From: Bacillota bacterium
Lineage (GTDB): Bacteria > Bacillota > SHA-98 > Ch115 > JABLXJ01
Direction: 5' to 3'
Assembly (NCBI GenBank): GCA_013178125.1
Contig: JABLXJ010000002.1
Location: 186,001-250,000 of the forward strand
Length of the DNA stretch: 64,000 nucleotides
The position numbers were made by a program, and so were the translations under genes. The notes under the pieces were generated by a model that did no database searches, was not told where the DNA came from, and was given only the letters and a program-made list of their open reading frames with translations. This document shows, piece by piece, positions 26,921 through 46,672 of the stretch. The number at the start of each line of letters is the position of its first letter. The stretch's first letter is position 1.

Positions 26921-26954
26921 TTGACAAGGGAAGCTATCTGTGATATGGTATAAT
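26921..26954 (+). promoter_or_regulatory. promoter of the exopolysaccharide locus
   Basis: TTGACA at 26921-26926 with TATGGT 17 bp later, or the extended -10 TGGTATAAT (26946-26954). Either gives a start near 26955-26961, about 35 bp before the PelF-like gene. The same TGGTATAATTA string occurs before the HD-GYP gene (43871). Upstream 26789-26920 contains GC hairpins such as GCCCCC (26861-26866) with GGGGGC (26875-26880). Confidence 0.65.
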
Positions 26955-26991
26955 TACTATAATTTTAAGAAAAAATGGAAGCGATGGCCGA

Positions 26992-28737
26992 TTGTCCAAG
27001 AGTATCAAGGTGATGCTGGCCACGGAAGGGACTTATCCATTTCATAGGGGAGGGGTTAGCACCTGGTGTGATATTTTGATCAAGTGTCTCTCCTCCGTAG
27101 ACTTCGTGGTTTATAGCATCCTGATGAACCCTTTTGTCCGACAGAAATTTGAACTCCCTCCCAGATGCAAGCTGGTTAAGGTGCCTTTATGGGGCACCGA
27201 GGAGCCGAGCGAGCATCTTACAGATATCCCATTCTCCCAGGTGTATCTGGCCAAGCGCCGGACAAATGAGGAGGTGGTGAGGGAGCATTTCTTGCCACTC
27301 TTCAGGGATATGGTGGAGGAGATTCTCTCGCCCCTTAAGAGCGGTAAGAAATTGGGCCGGACACTGCATGAGATGTACAGGTATTTCCGTGAGTACGACT
27401 ACCATCGCACACTCAAGTCCCAGATTCTCTGGGATGCCTTTAAGCAAATGATAATCGTAAGGGCACAGCAAGGCCAGGACGGGCTTGAAATGCCCAATAT
27501 CTTCGACCTCATCCAGAGCATGGGGTGGATTTATCGTTTTTTTATAGTGCTCAACACCCCTGTGCCTAGGGTGGATGTGGCTCATTCGGCGGCTGCCGCC
27601 ATTTGTGGTATACCCTGCGTGCTCGCTAAGCTCGAAAGCGGCACGCCCTTCCTTTTGACGGAACACGGCGTGTACCTCCGCGAGCAGTACATATCGGTGG
27701 CGCGGCAAAACATGTCTTCATACAGCAAAAACTTCCTGATCAATCTTGTAACTTCCGTGGTCAAAGTGAGTTATGATCTCGCTGACCAGGTATCGCCGGT
27801 CTGTGCCTATAATAGCCGCTGGGAACGGGAGATGGGTGTTCCACAGGAACGGATCAAGGTGATATATAACGGCGTAGACCCGGCGGTGTTTGCAAAGACG
27901 CCTCCGGTTTTGACCCCGAGGTCGAATCCTACGGTAGTCACGGTGGCTCGTGTGGACCCCATAAAAGATATGGAGACGCTGATTCGAGCAGCGGCCATTG
28001 TCCGGGAGCATATTCCGGATGTCCGCTTTATAATATATGGAAGCGTAAGTGTTCCCTCGTACTACGAGAAATGCCTTAACCTCAGAGAGTCGCTAGGGCT
28101 CAAGGAGACGGTGATATTCGCGGGCCATACCGATGATGTAGTCTCGGCTTACAGGTCTGGTGATGTGGTAGCCCTTTCCAGCATCTCAGAGGCGTTCCCC
28201 TACTCGGTTATCGAGGCGATGATGTCAGGAAAGGCTGTGGTGGCTACCGATGTGGGCGGGGTCAAGGAGGCACTGGAAGGCTGCGGCCTCCTGGTGAGGC
28301 CCCGTAAGCCCGAGGACCTGGCAGCCGCCTTGATAAAGCTTCTGCTGGACGACAAATTAAGGGCTACGCTGGCTGATGAAGCGCGTAATAAGGCTTTAAC
28401 CTATTTTTCTATTTCAAGGGCAATAGATCTCTATCTCGAGTCCTATATGACGCTTTACGAGCGTCAGGGTGCCAGAATGCTTGTGGTTGACCTCCGGAGG
28501 TGGCAGGTGCTGTATGCCCAGAGGGGTTATGCTTTTGCGGAGGCAGGCATGTGGCAAAAGGCCATAGGTCAGTTTCGTCAGGCTATCGAGGTAGACGTTA
28601 ATAGTCCCGCCGTTCCCGTATTGCTTGTTGAGATATCTCGAGCATATAATGAGTTGGGGCTATTCCCACAAGCCATTAACGAGTTGGAGAAGGCGGAGGC
28701 CATGGCATCAGTTCTTGAAAGAGGTCTTGTCGCGTAA
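26992..28737 (+). CDS. PelF-like GT4 glycosyltransferase with C-terminal TPR
   Basis: Cytosolic GT-B fold transferase. The N-terminal DUF3492-type region (TEGTYPFHRGGVSTWCD, LLTEHGVYLREQY) is the PelF hallmark. The C-terminal GT4 half has VARVDPIKDMETLI and the E-x7-E motif in EAFPYSVIE near residue 400. About 70 C-terminal residues form two TPR-like repeats not usual in PelF. PelF polymerises the Pel polysaccharide from UDP-sugars and works with PelG. Start TTG at 26992 is uncertain (weak ribosome-binding site; ATG at 27013 is possible). First gene of the locus, behind a good promoter. Confidence 0.82.
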   Translation: MSKSIKVMLATEGTYPFHRGGVSTWCDILIKCLSSVDFVVYSILMNPFVRQKFELPPRCKLVKVPLWGTEEPSEHLTDIPFSQVYLAKRRTNEEVVREHFLPLFRDMVEEILSPLKSGKKLGRTLHEMYRYFREYDYHRTLKSQILWDAFKQMIIVRAQQGQDGLEMPNIFDLIQSMGWIYRFFIVLNTPVPRVDVAHSAAAAICGIPCVLAKLESGTPFLLTEHGVYLREQYISVARQNMSSYSKNFLINLVTSVVKVSYDLADQVSPVCAYNSRWEREMGVPQERIKVIYNGVDPAVFAKTPPVLTPRSNPTVVTVARVDPIKDMETLIRAAAIVREHIPDVRFIIYGSVSVPSYYEKCLNLRESLGLKETVIFAGHTDDVVSAYRSGDVVALSSISEAFPYSVIEAMMSGKAVVATDVGGVKEALEGCGLLVRPRKPEDLAAALIKLLLDDKLRATLADEARNKALTYFSISRAIDLYLESYMTLYERQGARMLVVDLRRWQVLYAQRGYAFAEAGMWQKAIGQFRQAIEVDVNSPAVPVLLVEISRAYNELGLFPQAINELEKAEAMASVLERGLVA

Positions 28738-28759
28738 GAATTGTAAGGGAGAGTTGCGC

Positions 28760-29245
28760 GTGGAAGAGCAAATTCGTTTTCATACTGCTTTTTGGGGGTA
28801 TCGGAGGGCCCATGTCCATGAATACCTCTCCCAGTTGAGACGCGATTTCGAGGCTAAGAGAGAGGAACTTATTACCAAAAATAGGGAGCTTATAGCTCAA
28901 AACGAAGCGCTTGCCGCAAAACTGGCGGAGTTAGAGGCTCAACTGGCAAAGTACCAGGAACAGGAGCAAGTTATAGCCCAGGTTCTTGTAGATGCCCAGG
29001 TCAGGGCCGCTGCCATCGAGCGGGAGGCCAGGGAAGGGGCAGAGAGGATAAAGGAGGAGATAATGGCTGAGATAGCCATTAGGAGGACAGAGTTGAGGGA
29101 TATCAATGCCCGCGTTGAGGAGTTTAAGAAGGATTTCATGCGTATGCTCGATGATTACAAGGCTTCGCTTTCTGTCCATGATGCACGTTTTACGGAGGAT
29201 GAGGGGTCGATCTTTGAGGCCGGGGCCAAATTAAAGGAAGATTGA
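28760..29245 (+). CDS. short DivIVA-like coiled-coil protein
   Basis: 161 residues. N-terminal RFHTAFWGYRRAHVHEYLSQL resembles the DivIVA membrane-binding start (F..GY....V..YL), followed by about 110 residues of heptad-rich coiled coil with many Glu, Lys, Ala and Leu. GTG at 28760 with AAGGGAGAG 7 bp upstream. No enzyme motif. DivIVA-type proteins gather at curved membrane and recruit partners; here one sits between PelF-like and PelG-like genes, so a scaffold for the glycan machine is a fair inference. Confidence 0.65.
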   Translation: MEEQIRFHTAFWGYRRAHVHEYLSQLRRDFEAKREELITKNRELIAQNEALAAKLAELEAQLAKYQEQEQVIAQVLVDAQVRAAAIEREAREGAERIKEEIMAEIAIRRTELRDINARVEEFKKDFMRMLDDYKASLSVHDARFTEDEGSIFEAGAKLKED

Positions 29246-29267
29246 TTCCCTTGTGGGGTGGGGGAGG

Positions 29268-30365
29268 ATGTCTTGCGGAGGACTCCGTAAATGGTTCCTG
29301 GGGTATAATGTGACCCAGGTAGATAAACATATTGCGGAGCTTTTGGCTAGATACAGACAAGAGCTCGATGAGCTTGGAGCTCGGAAGGGTGCTTCTTTGT
29401 CTGAAAATCAGCGTTTATCAAGGGAAGTTAGCATGGCTTTGGATAAGGTATCGGCGTATGAGACTAAGAGGGAGGCTGCCCTTGCAGCCCACGCAAATGC
29501 TCTTAGATCTGCGCAGTACCTGGAGGAGATGGCCAGGTACAAGGCTGAACAGATAATCGCGGCAGCAGAGAGAGAGGTCCAGACGCATAAGGCATATCTC
29601 GCTACCCTCTCAATTCAGATAGACAAATCAAGGCAGGAATTCGAGAAGTTGGTGGATTCTATTCGGTCATTCCTGGATCAGGCGGCTTCAAAGGCAAACG
29701 ATGCTACATCCCTACCTTCGGCACCAGTCAAGGTAGCAGGGCGGATTCTTGCCGGAGGGAATGCGGAGGATACCTTTGTGACCAGGGGCCGGGACGGATT
29801 CTTGCGAGTCAACGTCGCCCCCCAAAACCTAAAAATGGTGGCTCAGGACGGCACACCAGTGGGACAGGTATCAAATCTGGTCCTTGATGGGGTGAGCGGG
29901 ACTACGATCGGCTACGAGATTACGGGAAGCGCTATTCCAGGCTCTGTCCCGGACGGTTCTGTTATCCCAGCGTCATGCGTGCTGGCGATGCGGTCTGACC
30001 GTCTTATTGTGACTTCTTCCCTACTTGAGGGGCTTCCCAGCTTGGATCTCGAAGTGTATGGAGCTCAGGCACCACCCGATCAGGCACCACCCGATAAGAA
30101 GGAAAATCGCGAACCTTCGAGCCGTGTCAGACAAGATATCGAGAAAAAGGAGATGCGGTATGTGGTGGGCAAGATAGCGGGCAGAGACCTTGTGGGAGAT
30201 GACGGTGTGTCGATCGTGGCCAAAGGAGACGAGATCACCCAGGAGGTCGTGGAGAAAGCCAGGGCTCAGGGCAAGCTGGCCGAACTTATCGTTCACATGG
30301 TGATGCCGGGTATGAGCCCGGACGAGATAGAGGCCGACCCTACTGTCAAACAGAACATTTCATAG
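29268..30365 (+). CDS. DivIVA-like coiled coil fused to a PRC-barrel-like region
   Basis: 366 residues. Residues 1-30 (LRKWFLGYNVTQVDKHIAELL) repeat the DivIVA-type start of the preceding gene. A coiled coil runs to about 135. Residues 155-265 (VAGRILAGGN, VAQDGTPVGQVSNLVLDG, VIPASCVLAMRSDRLIV) look like a PRC-barrel. The C-terminus (VVGKIAGRDLVGDDG, AKGDEITQEVVEKARAQGKL) is a second small domain often paired with PRC-barrels. Paralogue of the preceding gene at its N-terminus. The function is unknown; it could link membrane curvature to another protein or to a glycan precursor. Confidence 0.6.
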   Translation: MSCGGLRKWFLGYNVTQVDKHIAELLARYRQELDELGARKGASLSENQRLSREVSMALDKVSAYETKREAALAAHANALRSAQYLEEMARYKAEQIIAAAEREVQTHKAYLATLSIQIDKSRQEFEKLVDSIRSFLDQAASKANDATSLPSAPVKVAGRILAGGNAEDTFVTRGRDGFLRVNVAPQNLKMVAQDGTPVGQVSNLVLDGVSGTTIGYEITGSAIPGSVPDGSVIPASCVLAMRSDRLIVTSSLLEGLPSLDLEVYGAQAPPDQAPPDKKENREPSSRVRQDIEKKEMRYVVGKIAGRDLVGDDGVSIVAKGDEITQEVVEKARAQGKLAELIVHMVMPGMSPDEIEADPTVKQNIS

Positions 30366-30401
30366 CCGGAAGAATTCGTGGGATTTTTGTGAGGGGTCGC
30401 G

Positions 30402-31979
30402 ATGGTGGGGGAACGAGAATCGCTCGGCGGTTTGGCCACGGAGGTTATGGAAAAGAGCAGGTCGCCGAGGGACTTTTACGAAGTTGCGGCGCTTCTCGAG
30501 AGTATGGGCTGGACAGACAGCCAGGCGAGGAGCGTTTTCGGATACGACAATGTATTCGAACTCGCCAAAGATGTATTGGATCTCTGCAGGAAAAACGTGA
30601 TAACGAAGCCGGTTGTCCGGGAGAAGCGATTCCCCTTTTTTATTATTCTCTGGGATTTTATCAAGAGTTACCTCCGAGGCATCATGTTCGCCATGCCGAT
30701 GGCGGTTTCGATCTTCGCCATGTTGACTATAAGATATTCCCTTTGGTCCTACCAGTATTTTTCAGTGGAGATCGCTACAGCCATAGCTATCGGCACCATC
30801 TTGAGTTTTCTTGTTACAGGCGGATTTACTCAGGCTATTGCCCGCCGTGGTCTGATGTATATCGGTCAAAACGAGTACAACCTGGCAAGGCGTTTCTCTT
30901 TCCTGATGATCCGGGTGGGGCTTATTGTGATAATTCTTGCGGCGCTTGCGGCCCTTGCCTTTAATCTCGTATTTGAGATATTTCCTCTGAAGATGATGTC
31001 TTACATCCTGATTTATTATTTTTTTCTATCATGCATATGGCTCACCACAACGGTGCTATATATGCTCAGGCACGAACTTCTATTTACTGGTATAACCGTG
31101 ATTGGAATGATAACAGTGATTCTGTTGCACGAATTATTTAGGCTTGATATCATGCTTTCTCAAGCGATAGGTCTAACGATAACAGCACTCCTCATTTTTG
31201 CGATGGCAGCATGGCTCTTCCATCAGCATGAGCGTCGGGCCGAGCAGGGTGTGGAGCTTGCACCGGTGCCCCGCATGTCGCTGGTGGTGTATACGGTTAT
31301 CCCGTATTTTATATATGGCCTCCTCTATTTCGGCTTCATATACATCGACCGGGTTATAGCCTGGTCGGCAAACAGCCTCTTCATGCCCTATGTGATCTGG
31401 TTCCGAGGCGAGTACGAGCTGGGCCTCGATTGGGCGCTTTTGACCTTGATCTTGCCCATGGGCGTGGTTGAAGTTTTGATCAATAACTTTTGGATGAATC
31501 TTACAGCCAGGCAGAAATCCTTTCTCGCCCGGGATTCTACAAGGTTCAATCAGATCTACGTGAGCACTTACCGCAGGCAGATGGCGCTTTATGCTGCAAC
31601 AGCCGGGGCGAGCGGAATCGCGGTATATTTCGGGATGAGGCTCATCGATGCTTACAGGTTGCTCGACCTTCATCTTTTCCAGAACAGGGTGACCTACTTT
31701 GTATTCGCCTGGGGGGTGGTTAGTTATGCGCTTATAGCTGCCGGCCTGCTCAACTCCTTGTATCTATTTTCGCTCTCGCGGCCTGAGCCGGTAGTGAGGG
31801 CGGTTCTGTATGCCTCAGGGGCGGACATGCTTCTGGGGTTTGTGCTGAGCCGCGAGATCGATTATTATTATGCTGTTCTCGGGCTGGTTGGTGGAGCTCT
31901 GGTGTTCTTCGTGTTGACCTCGCGTTACGCGGTCGAGGCCCTGGGTGCTTTGGATTTCCATGTTTATTCCTCGGTTTAG
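30402..31979 (+). CDS. PelG-like polytopic polysaccharide transporter
   Basis: 525 residues with about 12 predicted membrane helices after a 70-residue soluble N-terminus (a helical region with GWTDSQARSVFGYDNVFELA). GLLYFGFIYIDRVIAW and the C-terminal YYYAVLGLVGG..SRYAVEAL correspond to conserved PelG parts (MOP superfamily flippase-like). PelG moves the Pel polymer across the membrane with PelF, whose homologue is three genes upstream. GAGGGG precedes the ATG. Assigned by partial motif likeness and context; a distant MOP-family exporter is the alternative. Confidence 0.65.
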   Translation: MVGERESLGGLATEVMEKSRSPRDFYEVAALLESMGWTDSQARSVFGYDNVFELAKDVLDLCRKNVITKPVVREKRFPFFIILWDFIKSYLRGIMFAMPMAVSIFAMLTIRYSLWSYQYFSVEIATAIAIGTILSFLVTGGFTQAIARRGLMYIGQNEYNLARRFSFLMIRVGLIVIILAALAALAFNLVFEIFPLKMMSYILIYYFFLSCIWLTTTVLYMLRHELLFTGITVIGMITVILLHELFRLDIMLSQAIGLTITALLIFAMAAWLFHQHERRAEQGVELAPVPRMSLVVYTVIPYFIYGLLYFGFIYIDRVIAWSANSLFMPYVIWFRGEYELGLDWALLTLILPMGVVEVLINNFWMNLTARQKSFLARDSTRFNQIYVSTYRRQMALYAATAGASGIAVYFGMRLIDAYRLLDLHLFQNRVTYFVFAWGVVSYALIAAGLLNSLYLFSLSRPEPVVRAVLYASGADMLLGFVLSREIDYYYAVLGLVGGALVFFVLTSRYAVEALGALDFHVYSSV

Positions 31980-32030
31980 GTCCCACGTAAAGATGGAAAG
32001 GGGGTGTCGTAACTTACGTACACACCGGGA

Positions 32031-34019
32031 GTGATTTGCCTGTCAATGCTCCGGATCTGCCTGGCTTTTCTTTTCGTATTCGTGTGGCTGCCTTGCCGGC
32101 TTTTCCCGCAGCAAGAGGGCGAAGGCTTCCTGGATGTTTTCTTTGCAAATATCGTTCAAATGAGCTTCTGGAGCATCCTCGCCGTGTACCTCCTGGCTGC
32201 GTTGAGGCTTTATGAGCTAATCTCGCTGGGGGCGATCTATCTTATCATCTATCTGATACGCCTGAGGAGTCTCTACTCCAGTGAAAGCTTGAAAGCAACC
32301 CTTGCCAACATGGCTCAGTTGAGCTTTGACATGCTGGATGGGGCGGTTTCCTTGAGGTTGAGCGTGGCACGCTACCTGCGCCAGGGGATGGAAGCAGTGC
32401 GGAGAACGCTCCAAGGGGTTTTTGTGTCTTGGCTTTCCGTTTTGCAGGCCGCTAGTTTCCTTGGCATATTCTCGTATGCAGTATATCTCAGGTTCATAGA
32501 TGCCGTAAGGCATGCTGCCCCTGCACTCTCTGACTCATATGTGACCCTGGCATGGATGAAATATGTAGAAAGGCGCCAACTGTTCCACGATGGCATATAT
32601 CCTCACGGATTCCATATATACCTTTCCATATTGCGAAAGTTTTCCGCGGTCGACCCCCTGCTGGTACTGAAATACGTGGGGCCCTTCAACGGGGTGCTGA
32701 TCACTCTTTCGGTGTATTATGTTTTGTCCAGGCTTACCAGGCAAAAGACTCCAGCCCTGGTGGGGGCCTTTGCCTACGGCGTTTTGGGCCGGGACCTGCC
32801 GTGCGAATTCGTGCGCCAGGCAGCCACCAACTCCCAGGAGTTTGCCCTTGTGTTCCTTTTACCGACACTGTGGTTTGGCCTGCGCTTTCTTCAAAAAGGG
32901 AATAAAAGGGATGTGTATCTTGCTAGCGAGGGGCTTGCGGTGATGGGCCTGAGCCACGTCATGGTGGCCTTTTTTGCCGCTGCAGGGATGTTGGCAGTGG
33001 CTGGTGCTGCTATCCTGGCTTTCTCGGTAAACTGGCGCAGGTTGGCCAATTTGACCGTGGGTTCGCTCTTATCTGGCCTGGTATCAGGAGCACCCCTTGC
33101 AGTTGGACTTGCTTTGGGGAAGAGTTTGCACGGGAGTTCTGCAGAGTTTGCCGCAGCTACGGCAGCTATCCCTCCGCCGCCGTTGACGGAGGCGATCCTT
33201 GCAGGATTGGTTGTGGCTCTTGCAGCAGGATTATATGGCTTGATCCTGGTTCAAGATAGAAGTCAGAGATCATCTCTCTATTTCGTCACACTCCTTGTTG
33301 GTGGGTCCACCGCGCTTTATGAGGCTCCCCGGTTTGGACTCCAAAGCGTGGCCCTTGCTGCGCGGGCTGGTGAATTCCTGGCGCTAGCCTTGTGTCTCGG
33401 ATACGGGCTTTTTTGGCGCTGCCTCGACCCAGCACCCAATCAGGTGGCTCAATGGAGAAGCAGCAATAGCCGTATGACAGCCCTGCTGACAGTGTTGGCG
33501 ATAGCATCCATGGCAGCAGTGTTATATTACCGGGCCCCTACGCCTCCGGAACCATACAAGATGCAGTGGGATGAGGAGGTTGAGCAGTACCTGAGGATAG
33601 CACATACTAATTTGCCTACTGATTGGCTCATCGTATCAAACGAAGAAGACTATGCGTTGGTCCTTGGTCGCGGCTGGCACTTGTCGGTATCGGACTTTCT
33701 TGCCAGATACTCCCCGACGGCGCCTGTTTTGGCTATCCGGAATCAAACCGGTAAGAGGGAGAGGCTATTGATGTCGGATATATTCATTTTTTACGAGAAG
33801 GAGCCCTATCCTGTACCCCTGGATGATCCGAAGGTTCAAGAAACTTATCGGCGTCGATTAAGGGAGGGTAAGCATCTCAGACAATGGGTGGAGGAATATA
33901 TGAGAACCCATAAAAATATGAGCCTATATTATCAGGGCAAGCATCTCGTGGTCTACCAGATTCATCAGGAGAAGACAAAGAGGCAGCTCTTCCGCGAGGT
34001 ATGGGGGGAGGAGAGGTAA
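32031..34019 (+). CDS. multi-pass membrane protein, GT-C-like family, copy 1
   Basis: 662 residues with about 12-14 hydrophobic segments and a soluble C-terminal tail. No family recognised with certainty. The loop SDSYVTLAWMKY (167-178) then DGIYPHG (187-193), between membrane segments, resembles the first-loop acidic motif of GT-C lipid-linked sugar transferases. The same motif is kept in copies at 34001 and 41735. The C-terminal motif W..EYMRTHKNMSLYYQGKHLVVYQI is also shared. GTG at 32031 or ATG at 32046 could be the start. The 3' end overlaps the broken copy that follows. Confidence 0.6.
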   Translation: MICLSMLRICLAFLFVFVWLPCRLFPQQEGEGFLDVFFANIVQMSFWSILAVYLLAALRLYELISLGAIYLIIYLIRLRSLYSSESLKATLANMAQLSFDMLDGAVSLRLSVARYLRQGMEAVRRTLQGVFVSWLSVLQAASFLGIFSYAVYLRFIDAVRHAAPALSDSYVTLAWMKYVERRQLFHDGIYPHGFHIYLSILRKFSAVDPLLVLKYVGPFNGVLITLSVYYVLSRLTRQKTPALVGAFAYGVLGRDLPCEFVRQAATNSQEFALVFLLPTLWFGLRFLQKGNKRDVYLASEGLAVMGLSHVMVAFFAAAGMLAVAGAAILAFSVNWRRLANLTVGSLLSGLVSGAPLAVGLALGKSLHGSSAEFAAATAAIPPPPLTEAILAGLVVALAAGLYGLILVQDRSQRSSLYFVTLLVGGSTALYEAPRFGLQSVALAARAGEFLALALCLGYGLFWRCLDPAPNQVAQWRSSNSRMTALLTVLAIASMAAVLYYRAPTPPEPYKMQWDEEVEQYLRIAHTNLPTDWLIVSNEEDYALVLGRGWHLSVSDFLARYSPTAPVLAIRNQTGKRERLLMSDIFIFYEKEPYPVPLDDPKVQETYRRRLREGKHLRQWVEEYMRTHKNMSLYYQGKHLVVYQIHQEKTKRQLFREVWGEER

Positions 34020-34784
34020 TAATAGGACCCTGGTACAGTTACCTTACAGCACTCAAGGTCATAATCTTTTTTCTACTCATCTTTTATTACCTTCCCAGCC
34101 GCATCGTGAGCTTTCGGGAAGGGGAGGATGGGCTTGACCGTTTCTTTATCAGCTTTATTCACATGGTGAGCATTACAATCATTTTGGTTCATCTTCTTGC
34201 CTTTCTGCGGCTCTACGACTATTTCTCACTGGTTGTGGGTTACATCGGCATCATTGCCCTGGTCGTCTGGCGACAGGGGCAATCCCCGATTCGGCTCGTG
34301 GAGCAGCTTGGGATGGGATTCGTAACCGCCTTGCTGGACGCGGCGGAGGGGACCGGAGGGCTTGGGGCGGCCATCCGAGGGTATATGGAGAGTCAGAGAC
34401 GCGCATTAATCTCCGCACTATCGTCGTGGCTGAGATGGGCGGTCAACCCTATGGAGGGCTTGCTACCTTTGGGGGTGCTTATCTATTCCGCCTATCTCCG
34501 ATTCCACCATTCGCTCACTCATTCATACCTCGGCGCATCTGATGCCTATCTCCACCTTGCCTGGACCAAGTATATCGGTTCAAATCAGATATATAAAGAT
34601 GGAAGGTACCCCTACGGCGGGATAGTATTACATGAACCCGGGGAACCGGGCCATAATCCAAGCCAAGATCATCGCGTGGGCCGAAGCCTATATGAAGAGC
34701 CATGGCAATATGTCAGTGTTTTATGAAGACAGGAAGATGGTGGTCTACATGATCAAACATGCTCCGAAAGTTAAGAGAAGTTAG
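34001..34784 (+). pseudogene. internally deleted third copy of the GT-C-like membrane family
   Basis: Residues 1-206 match the N-terminus of the copies at 32031 and 41735, including LPSRIVSFRE and SDAYLHLAWTKY then DGRYPYG. Near 34618-34628 the match stops. From 34626, in another frame, the sequence reads YYMNPGNRA and on to HGNMSVFYEDRKMVVYMI, matching the extreme C-terminus of the intact copies, ending at TAG 34782-34784. About 400 codons are therefore deleted with a frameshift. The open frame itself ends at 34726. It may still yield a 240-residue N-terminal membrane fragment. Confidence 0.85.
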
Positions 34785-34813
34785 ATTAGAATCTGTAACC
34801 GCTGAAATGGGGG

Positions 34814-35662
34814 ATGAGCTTGAGGGAAGGGGTTTTGGAGAAAAAGGTCTTGGTAATGCCCCAGTTTAATGAGGCTAGAACCGTCGTAGAAGTGCTCAAC
34901 CGGGCCTACAGGTATGTGGATATCATTGTGGTCGTGGATGATGGCTCTACGGATACGTCCTATGGTCTTATCGAGGCGTGGATGCGAGATAAAGAGAAGG
35001 TTTGTCTAATTCGCCTCGGAAAGAATAGAGGTATGTCGGGGGCCCTCCTTGCGGGTTTCTGCTATGTCTATGGGCTTCTTGAGAAAGGCATGGTGGATCC
35101 AGAGGATATCGTGATTAACATCGATGCGGATGGCCAACACCGCGCTGAGGAGATCCCGTCAGCGATTGAATTCATGAAGAGACATGGCTATGATATCGTG
35201 CTCACCAGAAGGGACCTTTCTGGCTATCCACGGCTGAAACAAATAGGTAATTGGGGTCTCTCTCTTTGGGCAAGTTTCTTGGGGGGCGTAAAGTACCATG
35301 ACGTGGAATGTGGGTTCAGGTTCATGGGGGCTGCGGTAATCCCTCACCTCCTTAAGTATTTTACGGGCCGCCGATATGGCTGCGCCCAGGAGATCGGCAT
35401 TATTACAGCACTCCTGGATTTCAAGATTAACAACGAATTGCCCACGCGTATAAATTACTACCGTGAAGGCGCAAGGGTGAGGGATGGCCTTACTAATCTG
35501 GGGATGGGATTGCTTGCCTTTTTACGCGTAAAGCTTGGCATTCGAAATGACCTGTCGAAGCTATTGAGGAGGGTATTCAGGGATGCTTTTGTGTGGGACC
35601 CCGGGATAGAAGGTGCCCCTGTCGTTGATTCTCTAGAGTCTCCGAGATCTGCTATTTCATGA
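34814..35662 (+). CDS. GT2 glycosyltransferase, DPM/polyprenyl-phosphate sugar synthase-like
   Basis: 282 residues, GT-A fold, no membrane helix. MPQFNEARTVVEVL, VDDGSTDTS (nucleotide/metal site) and NIDADGQH (DxD) are intact. The layout is that of dolichyl- or polyprenyl-phosphate mannose synthases, which make the lipid-linked donors used by GT-C transferases; adjacent GT-C-like genes fit that pairing (inference). ATG at 34814 has weak G-rich spacing; a TTG near 34838 after GGAAGGGG is an alternative. Confidence 0.8.
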   Translation: MSLREGVLEKKVLVMPQFNEARTVVEVLNRAYRYVDIIVVVDDGSTDTSYGLIEAWMRDKEKVCLIRLGKNRGMSGALLAGFCYVYGLLEKGMVDPEDIVINIDADGQHRAEEIPSAIEFMKRHGYDIVLTRRDLSGYPRLKQIGNWGLSLWASFLGGVKYHDVECGFRFMGAAVIPHLLKYFTGRRYGCAQEIGIITALLDFKINNELPTRINYYREGARVRDGLTNLGMGLLAFLRVKLGIRNDLSKLLRRVFRDAFVWDPGIEGAPVVDSLESPRSAIS

Positions 35663-35706
35663 AAACCTTCTGACACATACGAGGGGGAAGACGCGGGGAT
35701 TTGGGG

Positions 35707-37820: not shown

Positions 37821-39020
37821 ATGAGGATAATGCTGGTTACAAACGTTACGCCTTCTCCCGGCGGGGTTGGTTCTTACATCAACACCTTGGCTTCTGCGTT
37901 TAGAGAATTAGGACACCAGGTGGATATTGTTTCGGCATTTGGAATCACTAGAGACTTTTGGACTATTGAGGGCGGCGTTCTGAGAAAGTTTAAATTTGTC
38001 GCTGGTCGATCGTTAGGATTTATGGTGACCTATTATTTGACAAGAAGATTGCTTTTGGCAAGAATTGGTCAGGCTATTAGACACCGCCGATATGATATTA
38101 TACACGCTCAGGACGTATGTGCGCTAAATCAAGCTCATCGCTGTGTCTTAGCGGACGGGATACCGTTAATTCTAACAGTACACGGGTACCTCACGCGTGA
38201 AGCCCTGAGTAAGGGCAATATCGTCAAGGGGGGGCATGCCGAACGTTACTTGATTCAAGAAGAACGGATTGCATATCGCGATGCAGATTATATAATAACT
38301 GTTGATAAGAGTCTGTGCTCGTACGTGAAGTCTTTTGGAGCAGATTCCAATAAGATATCTATAATTCCAAATTTCGTTGATACCACGCTTTTTTCGCCTC
38401 GTGAGTCGGTGAGTTCTGAGTCGGACAAGTTCAGTGGGGGGGTAACTATTCTTTGTCCCAGAAGGCTGGTTAAGAAGAACGGGGTAATCTACGCAATATT
38501 AGCAGTCAAGGAGCTCAGATCGGAGTACCAAATAAATGCCAGGTTAATAATCGCCGGTGACGGCCCTGAACGACCTGAAATCGAGCGATGTATTCGTGAA
38601 TGCCAACTCGATAATGTGATATTATTGGGCGACGTTCCTAGAGACCAAATGATTGGCCTGTATCGCTCGGTAGATATAGTAGTGATCCCCTCCATAACAA
38701 CCGAAGGAATCGTGGAGGCTACTTCTATAGCAGCCTTGGAGGCTATGGCCTGCGGTGTTCCAATAGTAGCGTCGAATATTGGTGGTTTGACTGAGTTAAT
38801 TGAGGACGGAGAGAATGGCCTTCTTGTCCCAGAAGCCTCACCCGTGGCAATTGCCCAGTCCATTCACAAATTGGCAAGTGATAAGGACTTGAGACGAAGT
38901 ATCATAGAGAATGCCCTTAAAAGAGTAAAAACCCTTTATTCCAAGCAAAAGGCTGTTCTTGAATACCTTACAATATATAATAACCTGTTAAGTGACAGGA
39001 GAAATAGGGAATGGCTATAA
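37821..39020 (+). CDS. GT4 glycosyltransferase
   Basis: 399 residues, GT-B fold. N-terminal TNVTPSPGGVGSYINTLASAF acceptor loop; C-terminal donor site GDVPRDQMIGLYRS and EATSIAALEAMACGVPIVASNIGG (E-x7-E). The gene is markedly AT-richer than its neighbours, with many ATA and AGA codons, suggesting transfer. It overlaps the next GT4 gene by 10 bp, so they act together. Donor and acceptor unknown. Confidence 0.85.
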   Translation: MRIMLVTNVTPSPGGVGSYINTLASAFRELGHQVDIVSAFGITRDFWTIEGGVLRKFKFVAGRSLGFMVTYYLTRRLLLARIGQAIRHRRYDIIHAQDVCALNQAHRCVLADGIPLILTVHGYLTREALSKGNIVKGGHAERYLIQEERIAYRDADYIITVDKSLCSYVKSFGADSNKISIIPNFVDTTLFSPRESVSSESDKFSGGVTILCPRRLVKKNGVIYAILAVKELRSEYQINARLIIAGDGPERPEIERCIRECQLDNVILLGDVPRDQMIGLYRSVDIVVIPSITTEGIVEATSIAALEAMACGVPIVASNIGGLTELIEDGENGLLVPEASPVAIAQSIHKLASDKDLRRSIIENALKRVKTLYSKQKAVLEYLTIYNNLLSDRRNREWL

Positions 39021-40138
39021 AGGTTTTGCACACCATCACAAATCTCGGAGTGGGTGGAACTGAAACCGTCGTCTGTGATATATTGCGCAGGCTTGACCGG
39101 GAGAAATTCGAACCAATGCTATGTGTATTAGGGAGGGAAAGGCCCGACGGCATGGCGGAAGTGCTCAGGCAAGACGGGATACCAGTGTACCATTTGGATA
39201 CCCTTACGCCTTATGCTATATGGAAGCTGGCGAGACTGTATCGCCGGCTGCGCCCAGACATTGTCCATACACATCTTTATCGGGCGGACCAATATGGACG
39301 GATCGCTGCTCGTCTTGCCGGGATAGAGCCGTGTATAACTACCCTTCACAACGTAGATCCTGAACGTGCCGGCTGGCGTTGGAGCAATATCATAGACAGG
39401 GTGAGTTTACGTTGGTGTCATGGTTTGATCGCGGTCTCCTTACCCGTAAAAGAGCATTGCATCAAGAATAGCAATATACCACCGGAAAGAATCTGGATAA
39501 ACCCCAATGGCGTTGATTGTTCACGGTTTTCCGAGATCCGAAAGGGTACAACAGAATACATTATAGAATTTCGAAAGGAATTGGGTATACCACATGGGTG
39601 CCCCATACTTGGATTAGTAGCAAACTTCACCGTGCAGAAAGGACACCCCTACCTGATCAGGGCGGTTGGCCATCTACGTAAAGATTTCCCAAATCTTCGT
39701 CTGTTGCTGATTGGACATGGTTCGGAAGAAGAAAACCTACGGAATTTAGTAAATAATCTCGGTCTAAAAGAGCAAGTCATTTTCCTCGGAAAACGTCGAG
39801 ACATACCGGAGATTCTCGCCGCTATCGATATATTTGTGTTTCCATCCTTATGGGAAGGACTTCCAGTGGCGTTGCTAGAAGCTGCCGCTGCAGGGGTACC
39901 AATCGTGGCCACTGATATTCCCATGAATAGGCAAGTTCTATCTAGTCAACATGCCTGGCTCGTACGCCCCCAACATGTCAACGCCCTTGCTCTGGCTATA
40001 GCCGAAGCCGTTCGAAATCCTGTAGAGAGCCGTAACAAGGCCATCGCAGCCCAAGAGCATGTCCGCATAAATTTTTCTATAGACCAGTCAGTATCACGCT
40101 TAGAGAGTTATTATCTGAGCCTGATGAATTGGAAATAG
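39011..40138 (+). CDS. GT4 glycosyltransferase
   Basis: 375 residues, GT-B fold. HTITNLGVGGTETVVCDILRRL at the N-terminus, then HTHLYRADQYGR, and the donor site GKRRDIPEILAAIDIFVFPSLWEGLPVALLEA. Its start lies within the end of the preceding GT4 gene. Composition is again lower in G+C than the pur region. Product unknown; the G-[GT]-E-x-V start is typical of exopolysaccharide chain-building enzymes. Confidence 0.85.
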   Translation: MAIKVLHTITNLGVGGTETVVCDILRRLDREKFEPMLCVLGRERPDGMAEVLRQDGIPVYHLDTLTPYAIWKLARLYRRLRPDIVHTHLYRADQYGRIAARLAGIEPCITTLHNVDPERAGWRWSNIIDRVSLRWCHGLIAVSLPVKEHCIKNSNIPPERIWINPNGVDCSRFSEIRKGTTEYIIEFRKELGIPHGCPILGLVANFTVQKGHPYLIRAVGHLRKDFPNLRLLLIGHGSEEENLRNLVNNLGLKEQVIFLGKRRDIPEILAAIDIFVFPSLWEGLPVALLEAAAAGVPIVATDIPMNRQVLSSQHAWLVRPQHVNALALAIAEAVRNPVESRNKAIAAQEHVRINFSIDQSVSRLESYYLSLMNWK

Positions 40139-40151
40139 ACAAGGAATAAAG

Positions 40152-41711
40152 ATGGAAATTTCTAGTCGACAAATAAGCAAATCGATCGTGATAGTCGCTA
40201 TCGCAAATATCGTCCTGGCTATCATAGCACTGGTGCGGGAATCGCGGCTTGCGGCCTTCGCCGGGACTACGGGAACCGCGGACGCATTTATGCTGGCATT
40301 GTACCTCCCCGACCTGGTGGGTAACACCGTGCTTGCTGGCGGCATCACTTTTGCGGCAGTCCCTGTCCTGTCTACCTATCGGGCGAACGGCGATCCGGAG
40401 GGGTTCAAACGGACACTTGGAGCTACCACTGGCCTGCTCCTGATGCTTACTTTGGCACTTTCGGCACTGGGCTGGTTTGCGGCTCCGTTTCTTATAGCCC
40501 GGGTTGGAGCAGGGCTCAGTGAGGCCACCAGAAGCCTGACTGGCATGTTATTCAGTTGCCTTTTACCAGGAGTGCCTTTCTTTGTGCTCACAGCGCTCTT
40601 CAATTCAGCGCTATATGTATTGGGACGTTTCGCTTTTCCGGCCTTCGGCCCGGTGGTACAGAACCTGGTATTCCTTTCTGGACTGCTATTCCTTGCGCCA
40701 ATTTTGGGGGTAGAGATACTCGCAATCTCCTTTACGATAGGGACGGTAGCAATGTTTCTATTGCAATTGCTGCCGCTGATGAAAAGCGGGCATCTGGATA
40801 TGCCAACGGCAGACTGGACCGACCCAGGGTTGAGAGGTATAGTGCATAAGAGCTGGCCGGTGATGGCGGGGATCCTTTTGACACAACCGGGTGGCATCGT
40901 GGAGAAGATGTTGGCGTCGAACCTGGTTGAGGGGAGTATCGCAGGCTTGAGTTATGCCTTTAAGCTTTCCCAGTTCCCCATATGGGTTTTCGCTGCGGCC
41001 ATAGGTACCGTGATCTTCCCAGCTCTCGCCCTCTCGGCTGGGGAAAGAGACTTTCTGCAGTTTAGGAGAGTACTTACTGAAGGTCTGGTTCTGACAATGT
41101 TCATCTGTCTTCCATTCACAGTTGTCTTCGTAATTCTGGGAAGGCCAATCGTATCCTTGCTATTTCAGCACGGAGCCTTTGATATCAATTCCCTTGGGCT
41201 GACCTCCAGTGTGTTGTCTACCTATGCCCTGGGGCTTGGAGCCCAGGGACTTGCGTATCTTTTCCTACGGGCTTTCTATTCGTTAGGTGACATGATAACG
41301 CCTATGAATGTAGCCGTAGTGAGTACCATTGTCACGGTGGCATCAGATATGTTCTTCGTTCGGCGATGGGGGTTACCGGGTCTCGGTCTGGGGACCTCGA
41401 TAGGGACCATAGTACAGGCCATGGCATTGGGCCATTTTCTTTCTAGGAGGGTCGGGTATCTGGGCAGAGGCATCGTCCATTCGATCTGGCGGATAGGCGT
41501 GGCATCTTTCTCTCTTGCAGCGATGGCTTACTTTTTAAATAGGCTCTTATTACGCCGCGTAGAAGGGTTAGACCTGCCGACCAAAGTCTGGCGCGTCGGT
41601 CTCGTGCTCGGAATTGGTGGATTGGTTTATATAGCCATTTGTCTCGCATTGAGAGTGCCCAAGGTGAGGATGTTTTGGCCTGAGGTAAGACCGGGAATAC
41701 GTTCTGAATAA
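40152..41711 (+). CDS. MurJ/MviN-family lipid-linked precursor flippase
   Basis: 519 residues, about 14 membrane helices. RESRLAAFAGTTGTADAFMLALYLPDLVGN is the MurJ/MVF signature; FQHGAFD and the late AYFLN region fit too. MurJ flips lipid II, but family members inside glycan loci (Wzx-like role) flip other lipid-linked units. Placed between GT4 and GT-C-like genes, the second role is more likely here. Starts 14 bp after the GT4 gene. Confidence 0.82.
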   Translation: MEISSRQISKSIVIVAIANIVLAIIALVRESRLAAFAGTTGTADAFMLALYLPDLVGNTVLAGGITFAAVPVLSTYRANGDPEGFKRTLGATTGLLLMLTLALSALGWFAAPFLIARVGAGLSEATRSLTGMLFSCLLPGVPFFVLTALFNSALYVLGRFAFPAFGPVVQNLVFLSGLLFLAPILGVEILAISFTIGTVAMFLLQLLPLMKSGHLDMPTADWTDPGLRGIVHKSWPVMAGILLTQPGGIVEKMLASNLVEGSIAGLSYAFKLSQFPIWVFAAAIGTVIFPALALSAGERDFLQFRRVLTEGLVLTMFICLPFTVVFVILGRPIVSLLFQHGAFDINSLGLTSSVLSTYALGLGAQGLAYLFLRAFYSLGDMITPMNVAVVSTIVTVASDMFFVRRWGLPGLGLGTSIGTIVQAMALGHFLSRRVGYLGRGIVHSIWRIGVASFSLAAMAYFLNRLLLRRVEGLDLPTKVWRVGLVLGIGGLVYIAICLALRVPKVRMFWPEVRPGIRSE

Positions 41712-41734
41712 TTGCTGATTGGAGGGTTATTACT

Positions 41735-43783
41735 GTGGTAAGCCCTTTCTATTCGTGGATGCTAGCAGGTAAAGTCTTGATATTTTTCTTTCTCTTGTAT
41801 ATTTTCATTCCCAGTCGCCTTATCTACTTCCGAGAGGAAGCTAGTTTGCTTGATAAATTCTTTATTGGCCTCACTTATATGGTGATCGTAAATGTTATCG
41901 TAGTCTACATTCTGGCTTTTCTTAAATTGTATGAGGCGCTTTCTCTGATAATCGTATACTTTCTTTTATATATTTTTTTACTCCAAAGGCGGGACCGCTC
42001 GCCGGATAAAGTAGCTAGAGCTTTGGGAATGAATATCGTAATTGGGCTACTGGACATGGCTGATAGCAGAGGAGGCATTAAAGGAGCTATCTACCAGGAC
42101 ATCAAAAGTCGCAAAGATATACTAGTAGCTAATCTTTTGGGTATCGTTAAGCGCCCATATATCTTGGCAGTCCTATTGCCTCTTTCATACATTGCGACTC
42201 TCCGTATAGCGCTAGTTGTAAGGACATGCATTTTGGGAGGTGCCCAGATGGCTGACCCTTATGTTCATCTGGTTTGGGCTAAATACCTTCAACGAAGTAG
42301 ACTTTTTGTTGACCAGTTATATCCTATGGGATACCATGCCATTTTGGCTACTATTGGTACACTTTCTTTCATGGATCTTTACCACGTGATACGCTTTACT
42401 GGTCCTGTGGCCGGTATCTTATTCATCCTCACAATTTTCTATGTGGCCCGAAGCCTAGGTGTACCTGACATGGTTGCAATACTGGTGACAGTTATTTTTG
42501 GATTGGATATGCATCGATGGCTTCCTGCCGATTTTGACCGGCAACTGAGGGGGTTACCCATGGAGTTCTCAAGCATCTTCGTCCTACCCGGTCTATTGTT
42601 CCTGGTTCGCTACATATTTACCCCGCGCAAGGAAAATCTATATTACTTTTTCGGAACAGTTGCTGCCACTTCATTTATCCATCCATACAGCACCGGATAT
42701 TTGGCACTTGGAACTCTTCCTATTGTATCTATGGGATGTTTGCTAAGGAAGTTGACTTTTAAAAATTTGGCTAGTCTTTGCCTGGCAAGTCTAGGCGGCA
42801 TAGTATTGGGCAATCTGCCAGTCCTCCTCGGCTTTATTGGCGGCATCCCCACAGAGGGTTCTCTTACCTGGGCTACCTCTACAGTTGTACTCCCGGGCGG
42901 GGCCCCTGCCCCTAAGTCTATAAAGATATTGCCATTCATCGCAGGGTTTATCAAGGGTCCTTCTTGGTACCTTTTAGGCTTAGGTACAGCGGTTTTTGTT
43001 ATCATATGCAATGGCCTACGCATGCTGATTCTCGGTAAGAATTCTTGGCAATCCGCCGCTCGCCTTTCCTGGGGATTTGCGGCAATTATAATGCTCATCT
43101 TCTACCGGCTCTCTGAGCTTTCTATCATAGCAATTATGGATATCTATCGTCTTTCTCTAGGGATAACCTTGGTATTGTGTGTTTTATTTGCATTTGCAAT
43201 TAGTGAACTCGTGATGCTTTCATCCCTTTTGATAGACCATCGATTCATTACTGTGCTAGTCGGAATTACCATGGCCTACACAATTGTTTCACTTCCGCCA
43301 TACTATCCACCTGTTACCTTGATTGAATACCCGGCTGCAGCAGAAAACTACTTTCGAATTAAGGCCCAGTTTCCCAAATTTGAATGGACTCTGGTAGCCC
43401 CTGTCGAGCAGTTTGAAGAATCATTGGGTTATGGTTATCATGTAGAACTATGGAAATTTTTTCGAAGGTATAGGATCGAACACGCCGAGGACCCGGATTT
43501 CGACCCTCCTATACCAACTAAATATGTCTTTTTTTTCATAGAGAAAGTACCATTAAAAATTTGGGAACGCGGGCTTAATCCGGATGATTTCCCCGGCCCT
43601 ACAGAAAAATATTATAGAATCCCCGAGATGCGGGCAAATCTTGAACAGGAGGCTTATGTTTGGTGTAAAATTTTCCATAAGACCCATAAAAATGTTACTG
43701 TGTTCTACGAAGATTCCGAGCTAATAATATATCAGTACGAACATGACCCAACGCCATATATTGGTAAAGCCCCTCAAATCTAG
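41735..43783 (+). CDS. multi-pass membrane protein, GT-C-like family, copy 2
   Basis: 682 residues, paralogue of the product of 32031-34019. N-terminal IPSRLIYFRE matches the broken copy almost exactly. ADPYVHLVWAKY (173-184) then DQLYPMG (193-199) is the shared loop motif; many hydrophobic segments follow. The soluble tail ends with HKTHKNVTVFYEDSELIIYQY. GTG at 41735 with GGAGGG 8 bp upstream. The gene is AT-rich compared with copy 1, so the copies have different histories. Likely a lipid-linked sugar transferase, not proven. Confidence 0.6.
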   Translation: MVSPFYSWMLAGKVLIFFFLLYIFIPSRLIYFREEASLLDKFFIGLTYMVIVNVIVVYILAFLKLYEALSLIIVYFLLYIFLLQRRDRSPDKVARALGMNIVIGLLDMADSRGGIKGAIYQDIKSRKDILVANLLGIVKRPYILAVLLPLSYIATLRIALVVRTCILGGAQMADPYVHLVWAKYLQRSRLFVDQLYPMGYHAILATIGTLSFMDLYHVIRFTGPVAGILFILTIFYVARSLGVPDMVAILVTVIFGLDMHRWLPADFDRQLRGLPMEFSSIFVLPGLLFLVRYIFTPRKENLYYFFGTVAATSFIHPYSTGYLALGTLPIVSMGCLLRKLTFKNLASLCLASLGGIVLGNLPVLLGFIGGIPTEGSLTWATSTVVLPGGAPAPKSIKILPFIAGFIKGPSWYLLGLGTAVFVIICNGLRMLILGKNSWQSAARLSWGFAAIIMLIFYRLSELSIIAIMDIYRLSLGITLVLCVLFAFAISELVMLSSLLIDHRFITVLVGITMAYTIVSLPPYYPPVTLIEYPAAAENYFRIKAQFPKFEWTLVAPVEQFEESLGYGYHVELWKFFRRYRIEHAEDPDFDPPIPTKYVFFFIEKVPLKIWERGLNPDDFPGPTEKYYRIPEMRANLEQEAYVWCKIFHKTHKNVTVFYEDSELIIYQYEHDPTPYIGKAPQI

Positions 43784-43870
43784 GAATCTTTCTACCAGCC
43801 ATGCCTGCAGAAGGGTGCTGGTGAAGAACACGTATCGTCGAATCATCTGGCCAGAGATCCAATAAGAATG

Positions 43871-43879
43871 TGGTATAAT
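43871..43879 (+). promoter_or_regulatory. extended -10 promoter before the HD-GYP gene
   Basis: TGGTATAAT, an extended -10 element with no good -35 box. TGGTATAATTA is identical to the sequence before the PelF-like gene, so the two transcripts may share control. Confidence 0.5.
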
Positions 43880-43940
43880 TAACAATATGAAACCTCAGGA
43901 AGGGGAGTAAAAAAGCAGGGAAGATTGGGGGAACGCTCCA

Positions 43941-45800
43941 TTGCCAGCATCGTATATATCGGCAGTCTTGGCTCTATTACTAGTAGCTATCATTCTGGCT
44001 ATTCTCCAGATTGCAAGAATGAGGGCGTTAACCGCCAAAATAAGGTCTGACAAACAGATGTGGCAGGAGCTGGCCTCGATAGTTGATATCAGGCTGAGCT
44101 TTGAGGAAGCCCTAGTCCGGATTATGGACATAGTAGCAGGTATCGTGGAGGCTGATGGCTACTATTTCTATATTCGTGAAGAAAAAGAGAATACCTTGGT
44201 GCTGAAGGCTGTGAAAAGCGTACCCACAGACGTGGAAGTGGGGCCCAGTTATTCTGGCCTGGTAGCCTCGAATAGAGAGGCATACAATCCGCCATTGGGA
44301 CTTTCTCTAGATTCTCTACCGGACAGGGTGGCCATTGTGGGTGAGCAAACGGCGCCATTGCTCTCTATCCCACTCCGAGGCGAGAGGCTTGTGGGCGTGA
44401 TCCATGTGGGGCCTTTAGCCTCGAGGAAGGTCGCTCCCAAACAGGTACAAGCCCTATCCGAATTGGCGTTTTTGTGTGCCAACATGGTAGCTTTGCTGGC
44501 CGAGCGGGATGGCTTGAGGCTCCGGATGGAGGAGTTTTCTGCCCAGTCGCAGATTTCAGCTACGATGATGCGCTCCACTTTTGAGGGCGAGGCTGCGATT
44601 GGGCTTTTTCTAAATCTGGGTTCCGGCCTGGTTGGCGCCGATGGCGGATTTGTGATTGTAAAAGGCGAACCAGGGAAGACCCCATGGGTGCCCGCATGCT
44701 GGGGATTATTGGAGGATGTCTATAGGAGCCTTTCTAGAGACCCTGCCGTGGCTAGTGAACTTCTCATGAAGAGGGATAGGCCTGAAATACTGACTGCTGA
44801 GGAAGGTGGCCGCAGTCGCATATCTTCCTGGCTGGCAGCTAGGGATATAAATTGCCTCTGGGTTATTCCGTTTGTCGCGGAGGGTCGCCCTGGCACCCTG
44901 GGTTACCTGTTTAAGTCCTTTAAGAAGATGGAGAACTATACGCGTCCTGCCCTGGAGGTCATAGCCCGGCGAATCGCTTCAACCATCCGGGACATCAAGA
45001 TATACGAGGAAATGTTGCAGTCGTACCTGGAAACGCTCAGGTCCATTGTTGATTTATTGGATTCTCAGGAGCCGAGCACCGTCAACCATTCCACGCTCAT
45101 AGCCAAGTATGCCAGGGAGATATCACTTATGATGGGATTATCCTCTGAGGAAGTGGAGACCATTTCACTGGCTGCTTACTTACATGACGTTGGCATGATG
45201 GGTCTGGGTGAAGATATACTCTTCAAAAAGGGCAAACTGAGCAGTAGCGAATACGAAAAGATTAAGGGTCACGCTCAACTAGGGGCCACGCTTGTTGAGC
45301 CATTGAGCAAACCCTTGCCCATTGCTCCACTTATAAGGCATCACCATGAGCGTTATGACGGCTGGGGGTATCCCGCCGGGTTGAAGGGTGAGGAGATACC
45401 GCTTGGAGCGAGGATCATCGCGGTTGCAGATACTTTCAATGCAAAGGTATCTTCCCGGGGTTACCGGGGGGCCCTGCCCTATGAAAGAGCCATAGCTGAT
45501 ATCAAGGCGGCTGCAGGGAGCCAATTGGATCCAAAGGTTGTGGATGCCTTTATCAAATTGTGGGATATAAAGCAACAGAAGCCTGAACGCAGGGGGAAGG
45601 CACTTGAGGATTGCTGGGTCATGAGACAGTGTCCGCCCCAGATTGCAGCCACGTGTCCTGCCTTTAAGTCTGGAGGTAATTGTTGGGAGATTCCCGGTGT
45701 GAAATGCCACATGCACGGGGATACCTGTGAGAGCTGTTTGGTGTATACAGAGTACCAATTTCGGCAACGGCGTCCCAAGCTCTCCGAGATCCTGCGGTAG
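43941..45800 (+). CDS. membrane-anchored GAF/HD-GYP protein with two-CW domain
   Basis: 619 residues. One N-terminal membrane helix (residues 5-25), two GAF-like domains (about 45-185 and 200-350), HD-GYP domain with HD at 415-416, HHHERYDGWGYP and GYP at 476-478, and a C-terminal Cys-rich two-CW-type domain (CWVMRQCPP, CWEIPG, CESCLVY). HD-GYP enzymes degrade cyclic di-GMP. Placement at the end of a Pel-like locus suggests local control of polymer output. Pel systems usually use PelD, a GAF/GGDEF receptor; this may take that place (inference). TTG start with GGGGGAAC upstream. Confidence 0.85.
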   Translation: MPASYISAVLALLLVAIILAILQIARMRALTAKIRSDKQMWQELASIVDIRLSFEEALVRIMDIVAGIVEADGYYFYIREEKENTLVLKAVKSVPTDVEVGPSYSGLVASNREAYNPPLGLSLDSLPDRVAIVGEQTAPLLSIPLRGERLVGVIHVGPLASRKVAPKQVQALSELAFLCANMVALLAERDGLRLRMEEFSAQSQISATMMRSTFEGEAAIGLFLNLGSGLVGADGGFVIVKGEPGKTPWVPACWGLLEDVYRSLSRDPAVASELLMKRDRPEILTAEEGGRSRISSWLAARDINCLWVIPFVAEGRPGTLGYLFKSFKKMENYTRPALEVIARRIASTIRDIKIYEEMLQSYLETLRSIVDLLDSQEPSTVNHSTLIAKYAREISLMMGLSSEEVETISLAAYLHDVGMMGLGEDILFKKGKLSSSEYEKIKGHAQLGATLVEPLSKPLPIAPLIRHHHERYDGWGYPAGLKGEEIPLGARIIAVADTFNAKVSSRGYRGALPYERAIADIKAAAGSQLDPKVVDAFIKLWDIKQQKPERRGKALEDCWVMRQCPPQIAATCPAFKSGGNCWEIPGVKCHMHGDTCESCLVYTEYQFRQRRPKLSEILR

Positions 45801-45865
45801 TGACATGGGGAGAAGCGATCCCCCTGAGCTTCACTTGAGGGTGAAGATGTTTGAGGAGGGTGGCC

Positions 45866-46672
45866 ATGATTGATGATTCGGTACGCCAGCGATTGGCTTC
45901 GGCCGCTAATTTTGCCATTTACTATGGCTTCGGCCAAGAGGAGTTATTGGCCAGTTTTGACCTGGTCATCCTGGAGCCAGCGGCATACTCTGAAGGGGAT
46001 ATCCAACGGATTCGCAGTCGCGGCACACTTGTGTGCGGGTATCTTAGCGTGCTGGAGATAAATCACTCCTTTGATTTCTGTCATGTTGAGCCCAGGGATT
46101 ACCTGGTGATTGAGGGTCGCAGGAAAACCAATCCTGCATACTCTAACTGGATAATGGATCCACGCTCAGAGCATTGGACGCGGGTAGTTATAGAAATGGC
46201 GGAACGATGCGTAATGGCCAAGGGGTGTGACGGCGTCTTTTTAGATACCATTGGTGATGTAGAAGACCCCCTTTTACCGAGATCTCTGGCCGCTCAATTG
46301 GTGCCTGCTGCAGCTCTACTCACTAAGAAGATCAGAGAACGCTTCCCGCATGCGCTCTTGATCCAGAATTCGGGTATTGATACCCTCTACCGGTTTACCA
46401 CTCCGTATCTCGATGGGATTTTGTGGGAGAACTTCCCACTGAAATGGCCTACGGATTATTGGTCCCTTAACAAACTCAATGAATTTGAGAAGATATCCAG
46501 CAAGACCGGTTTACGTGTACTCCTGTTGGCAAAGGTGAGAGAACCTATACCTCATGACATATCGTGGGAGGTTCTTAAGGAACTGCAAACCCTCGCATTG
46601 AAGCGCGGCTTCCTGTTTTATGCTGCTCCAGGAGACTATACACGGGGGGTAATCTTACTACGCGGGGAGTAA
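45866..46672 (+). CDS. GH114/TM1410-like glycoside hydrolase
   Basis: 268 residues, TIM-barrel family with ANFAIYYGF, VCGYLSVLEIN, WIMDPRSEHW and GCDGVFLDTIGDVED, the strand-end acidic motif of GH114/TM1410-type enzymes (polygalactosaminidase-related). PelA carries a hydrolase domain of related fold plus a deacetylase; here hydrolase and deacetylase (36908) are separate genes. No signal peptide from the ATG at 45866, which has GAGGAGGG 5 bp upstream, so location is unclear. Confidence 0.75.
   Translation: MIDDSVRQRLASAANFAIYYGFGQEELLASFDLVILEPAAYSEGDIQRIRSRGTLVCGYLSVLEINHSFDFCHVEPRDYLVIEGRRKTNPAYSNWIMDPRSEHWTRVVIEMAERCVMAKGCDGVFLDTIGDVEDPLLPRSLAAQLVPAAALLTKKIRERFPHALLIQNSGIDTLYRFTTPYLDGILWENFPLKWPTDYWSLNKLNEFEKISSKTGLRVLLLAKVREPIPHDISWEVLKELQTLALKRGFLFYAAPGDYTRGVILLRGE

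Follow-up and report, generated by a model that had tools for sequence, protein, structure and literature searches.

The window analysed here is a stretch of 64,000 nucleotides, and it contains a one-direction cluster on the + strand (26992-46672), with genes for PelF, two DivIVA-type proteins and a remote PelG at its head and genes for GT-C, GT2, ATP-grasp, deacetylase, two GT4, MurJ-like, GAF/HD-GYP and hydrolase proteins making up the remainder. PelF, DivIVA (copy 1), GT2, ATP-grasp, the deacetylase, both GT4, the MurJ-like protein and GAF/HD-GYP were confirmed by Pfam and NCBIfam. An earlier note on this DNA had described PelF- and PelG-type genes around a DivIVA-type pair, followed by glycan enzymes, and both the gene order and the family assignments agreed with this description; the genes that it named are present at its coordinates on a single strand with mostly short gaps. 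The only longer gaps are 87 bases past the remnant ORF at 34001 and 157 bases ahead of the GAF/HD-GYP gene. The G+C content is 47-53% inside the region, against 57-62% in the flanks. Position 26921, taken as the start of the locus in that note, is the start of a sigma-70-type promoter, with 10/12 matches against 0.2 expected in shuffles. The features are as follows:

26921-26949, +, sigma-70-type promoter at the head of the cassette (TTGACA-17-TATGGT, TG before the -10)
26992-28737, +, pelF, GT4 polymer synthase with a C-terminal TPR tail (about residues 500-581), NF038011
28760-29245, +, div1, DivIVA-type N-terminal domain and coiled coil (PF05103, hhalign and PDB matches)
29253-30365, +, div2, DivIVA-type N-terminus, coiled coil, PRC barrel and 65-residue C-terminal tail (hhalign, AF2/Foldseek)
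30402-31979, +, pelG-like exporter, extended N-terminally by an extra domain (about 80 residues), about 12 TM segments
32031-34019, +, gtcA, GT-C-fold membrane glycosyltransferase (AF2 pLDDT 90.7)
34001-34790 (end approximate; ORF 34001-34726), +, remnant of a further GT-C gene (three-frame translation)
34814-35662, +, GT2, polyprenyl-phosphate sugar transferase-like (PF00535; no TM segments)
35701-36891, +, ATP-grasp ligase, carbamoyl-phosphate-synthase-like
36908-37780, +, polysaccharide deacetylase, XrtA/DUF3473 type (TIGR03006, 295.5 bits against a cut-off of 276.2)
37821-39020, +, GT4 glycosyltransferase
39011-40138, +, GT4 glycosyltransferase
40152-41711, +, MurJ-like flippase (PF03023, 263 bits)
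41735-43783, +, gtcC, paralogue of gtcA (24% identity to gtcA in the family alignment)
43941-45800, +, GAF/HD-GYP protein, membrane-anchored, with HDxGM and a Cys-rich tail
45851-46672, +, PelA-type glycoside hydrolase (family profile, phmmer)

The window PelF reached 155 bits with the NCBIfam equivalog model NF038011 (cut-off 100), which identifies it as the PelF of a Pel operon, and the EX7E glutamates are conserved. Its TPR tail (TPR_11, 8e-4) is an extension not found in non-Bacillota relatives, whose match stops near residue 490. The window PelG-like protein matched no Pfam model and stayed below the PF16933 cut-off, and a PDB sequence search with it gave nothing useful. PF16933 (PelG) was matched by 12/25 members of its family (best 1.4e-7), and the family profile aligned over 374 columns with classical PelG, represented by four proteins (hhalign, 85%, E 6e-6); the gene beside pelF is thus a predicted PelG exporter by remote homology. 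Its additional N-terminal domain is conserved. Kinship with MurJ was rejected, as the family profile found none. The assignment of the two proteins to PelF and PelG, rather than to groups outside them, holds by NF038011 and the family profile.

The div1 ORF was called from 28625, and GTG 28760 is the likelier start. Div1 scored 39.2 bits with PF05103, above the cut-off of 28, while div2 reached only 18.7 bits with the DivIVA model, under the Pfam cut-off. When compared with canonical DivIVA N-termini by hhalign, div1 gave 97.6% and div2 94%, with scores of 67.7 and 48.3; the maxima in 30 block-shuffled controls, which preserve composition and heptad blocks, were 40.7 and 29.0, and reversed sequences gave 15 and 21. 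A chance coiled-coil match as the source of the DivIVA signal was rejected by these controls. The best PDB matches of both profiles were GpsB N-terminal domains, with DivIVA lower. Both proteins are therefore assigned a putative DivIVA N-terminal membrane-binding domain, div1 by the family cut-off and div2 by hhalign with its controls. This N-terminus is divergent. We take the tip of B. subtilis DivIVA to be F17-R18-G19-Y20; in 36/39 div1 proteins, and with the motif retained in many div2 proteins too, the tip stands a few residues from the N-terminus and reads F/L/I, then usually W/F/I, then G-Y, so that R18 is replaced (mostly by W/F/I) and the pre-tip segment is missing. Div1 diverges fast, and identity to the copy in the window is 13-35%. 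In div2, what never varies is the 65-residue C-terminal tail (53/53) rather than the DivIVA domain, and the PRC barrel occurs in 20/53; its fold was confirmed on the AF2 model, with archaeal CdpB1/CdpB2 as the best Foldseek match (1e-4).

The GT-C-like call of the earlier note is supported for gtcA, whose confident model had GT-C proteins (OST/PglB, DPY19, AftA, ALG12, Pmt, ArnT) as all of its best 25 Foldseek PDB matches, at modest TM-scores near 0.4. A PDB sequence search with the GT-C proteins gave nothing useful, and the fold is known from the model alone. The remnant downstream arose by deletion between paralogues, with an internal deletion and a C-terminal piece in another frame. The NCBIfam relatives of the GT2 are of ArnC/PpgS type, under cut-off. 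The gene at 45851 had been called GH114-like; this was replaced by a PelA hydrolase, because the best PDB match of its family was PelA at 1.7e-18, against only 7e-5 for GH114 structures, and phmmer returned PelA alone. A PelA hydrolase domain, as in Pel operons, is thus predicted in the cluster, and the deacetylase is of TIGR03006/DUF3473 type, compared with the PelA-type deacetylase expected of a Pel operon. No export signal was found by hydropathy in the hydrolase (45851-46672) or the deacetylase (36908-37780); both look cytoplasmic, unlike PelA. In about 10 loci, a GalE-like gene that scores under the GalE cut-off lies directly upstream of pelF, which may hint at a partially deacetylated GalNAc polymer.

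When GTDB genomes were scanned with a PelF alignment, 77 loci were recovered. The order pelF-div1-div2-pelG-gtcA was present in about 50 loci of distant Bacillota genomes, with the halves divergent in Sulfobacillus types, and the arrangement is therefore not unique to the window genome. In the distant genomes, PelF was 43-62% and PelG 33-48% identical, and in a search of 299 phylum genomes four more families proved to have the PelG-like protein (36-48% identity), each time with the cassette around it. Only pelF, div2, pelG and gtcA are near-constant across loci and the other genes vary; since many loci are cut off, either by the end of the contig or at a distance of 10 kb from pelF, the absence of distal genes cannot be counted. 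In the PelF tree, all Bacillota cassette PelFs formed one clade (98/86) in which every member has div genes, and the sister PelFs, in Acidobacteria and Cyanobacteria, are without them; the arrangement therefore probably arose once. One locus (L030) was considered as a div-less exception and rejected, as its div genes are broken across frames near an ambiguous base. Deinococcus and Streptomyces plasmids (L122-L124) carry another type of PelF operon, with pelF, a PelG-like gene, three nucleotide-sugar genes and a polygalactosaminidase.

G003, a genome from the same genus, resembles the window at DNA level up to the pilT stop codon (26788) and again from 46687, and its interval between these points holds pilC, pilin, prepilin peptidase, pilM, pilN, pilO and pilQ-like genes, as named from reading their translations. 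Because the similarity breaks exactly there, the cassette (26789-46686) occupies the place of the type IV pilus operon of its congener, and the PilM of G003 had no match in the window's genome. The pilB gene between coaBC and pilT is also missing in the window, and pilT is left without pilus partners. In a distant UBA3570 genome (L016, 8200-9900) pilT again lies directly ahead of pelF, which suggests that the type IV pilus/aro locus may be a preferred site of the cassette. The window also holds a full-length OLE RNA (RF01071, 445 bits) at 62405-63036 (+).

With models built from classical operons, neither PelD nor PelE was found in the 77 loci, and a held-out Fusobacterium PelD (6e-5) and a held-out Cupriavidus PelE (2e-48) were recovered. 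A genome-wide search with PF16963 (PelD) was silent, but its controls were silent likewise, and it is uninformative. The proposal that PelD and PelE are replaced by other parts and PelA is split into separate genes was therefore borne out locally, by the 77 loci and the PelA-type hydrolase gene. In the place of PelD and PelE stand the DivIVA-type pair, the PelF TPR tail and the membrane GAF/HD-GYP protein. The lysine of HDxGK is missing in 19/19 GAF/HD-GYP proteins and the HD dyad in 8/19, with HHE..DG.GYP retained; the window motif is HDVGM. By its motifs, the protein appears to fall outside the HD-GYP phosphodiesterase set (HDxGK and HHExxDGxGYP), and this points to a receptor role in place of catalysis, at least for the HD-less subset; some family members may have stayed enzymes, because 11/19 keep the HD dyad. 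The gene was not seen in many of the sampled stretches, many of them being cut off as described above. The GAF/HD-GYP proteins have a Cys-rich C-terminal tail (C..CP..CWE..C..HG..C..C), which is absent from the Sulfobacillus-type members. A c-di-GMP-II riboswitch lies upstream of the cassette operon of C. algoriphilum (L025, 5491-5574), and it is no general feature, as only 1/25 loci scanned has one.

Considering these results, we regard it as moderately probable that the cassette encodes a Bacillota machine for Pel-type synthesis and export, with scaffold proteins derived from DivIVA in place of the PelD/PelE part. In the proposed model, PelF would build the chain inside the cytoplasm, for export by the PelG-like protein. 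Div1 and Div2 would be membrane-bound via the DivIVA-type tip and self-assembled via their coiled coils, and the invariant C-terminal tail of div2 may dock on the synthase or exporter, so that the machine would collect where the membrane is curved, at a pole or septum. Drawing on polyprenyl-linked donors, the GT2 and GT-C enzymes could attach side sugars at the outer face, and the hydrolase and deacetylase could trim the chain or its precursors inside the cell. The GAF/HD-GYP protein, its catalytic motif largely lost, would provide the signal input, probably as a c-di-GMP receptor comparable with the degenerate GGDEF of PelD. A DivIVA-type pair placed between the core genes and conserved in distant Bacillota means that the polymer may be made at a fixed place on the cell. 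DivIVA proteins are markers of cell poles and division sites and go to negatively curved membrane, and polar or septal placement of the polymer machine is what the DivIVA-type N-terminus would predict. The fuller proposal, a distinct Pel-type branch whose synthase is brought to poles or septa by dedicated DivIVA-derived proteins and switched on by a catalytically dead HD-GYP that serves, instead of PelD, as the c-di-GMP receptor, is offered tentatively.

Localisation cannot be a universal role, because the div2 proteins of C. algoriphilum and Alicyclobacillus have no recognisable DivIVA domain and the tail part alone remains. Since that tail is also the sole invariant part of div2, the two proteins might be assembly adaptors only, coiled coils in the place of PelD/PelE that link PelF with PelG and choose no site; the fast divergence of div1 fits this, as does a separate canonical DivIVA for polar functions in 23/26 carrier genomes (none was detected by the model in the window's own genome). 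The tip motif, retained in nearly all div1 and many div2 proteins, is more than an adaptor needs, and we consider this alternative rather doubtful. Somewhat less likely still, the cluster could be a general capsule or secondary wall polymer system with lipid-linked units, a MurJ-like flippase and OST-like transfer, in which PelF and PelG make one component. The GT2, the two GT4, the MurJ-like protein and GT-C enzymes with OST/PglB as closest folds would suit such a system, and the C. algoriphilum operon begins with a WbaP-like sugar transferase, but these genes vary between loci while the near-constant set is confined to pelF, div2, pelG and gtcA. A sporulation system, with the polymer as a coat of the spore or of the asymmetric septum, is very improbable; the earlier note had raised a spore or septal coat as a possibility. 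The div-gene carriers are all Bacillota, most with Spo0A, and spoIIIAA/AB lie downstream in the window, but carriers have Spo0A no more often (45/51) than the genomes of the phylum sample (257/299), one genome 97% complete (G217) has the cassette without Spo0A and SpoIVA, with sister MAGs in agreement, the window cassette promoter is of the sigma-A/housekeeping type, and sporulation sigma motifs showed no enrichment in 58 upstream regions. The cassette is thus not restricted to sporulators, and the spore coat was rejected as the best explanation by the base-rate and non-sporulator tests.

The scaffolded Pel-type machine that we favour would join two fields that seldom meet, the export of biofilm polymers and the scaffolds of pole and septum. 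Should the synthase be placed by the scaffolds, Bacillota would have in the cassette a genetically portable module with which a glycan can be made at a selected site, with culturable hosts such as Paenibacillus, Psychrobacillus and Tumebacillus. The degenerate HD-GYP would offer another, independent route to a c-di-GMP receptor in a Pel-type machine. Searches that require PelD miss this whole group of Pel-type loci.

Compared with the DivIVA/GpsB family, the cassette proteins share the N-terminal GY-tip and coiled coil, and differ in the replaced R18, the missing first segment and, in div2, a new tail and PRC barrel. The PRC domain of div2 has its best structural match in archaeal division proteins, with the likeness limited to the PRC fold. 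The P. aeruginosa pelABCDEFG operon shares PelF, PelG and the PelA hydrolase domain with the cassette, whereas no PelD or PelE was found here, separate genes encode a hydrolase and a deacetylase that lack export signals, and PelG has an extra N-terminal domain. PelB and PelC are outer-membrane parts and are not expected in the cassette. The pelDEADAFG operon of B. cereus ATCC 10987 (PMC7112168) is alike in PelF, PelG, separate PelA-hydrolase-like and GalE accessory genes and a link to c-di-GMP; in contrast, the cassette is without local PelD/PelE and has the DivIVA-type pair between pelF and pelG, GT-C enzymes and an XrtA-type deacetylase. DivIVA is unmentioned in that report (PMC7112168). The earlier note had called the arrangement undescribed, and no earlier description of PelF and DivIVA together in this sense was found in the literature searched, where the Gram-positive Pel papers are silent (most subscription journals and all preprints lay outside the search). 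In Streptomyces, DivIVA interacts with CslA and a glycan is made at the hyphal tip by CslA-GlxA (PMC12585849, PMC9040799). There too DivIVA is tied to a polysaccharide synthase, a contact that in the cassette we infer, but the enzyme is cellulose-synthase-like and its DivIVA is the essential general one, not a dedicated operon gene. The Streptomyces DivIVA-CslA interaction (PMC12585849) is the nearest precedent for the cassette.
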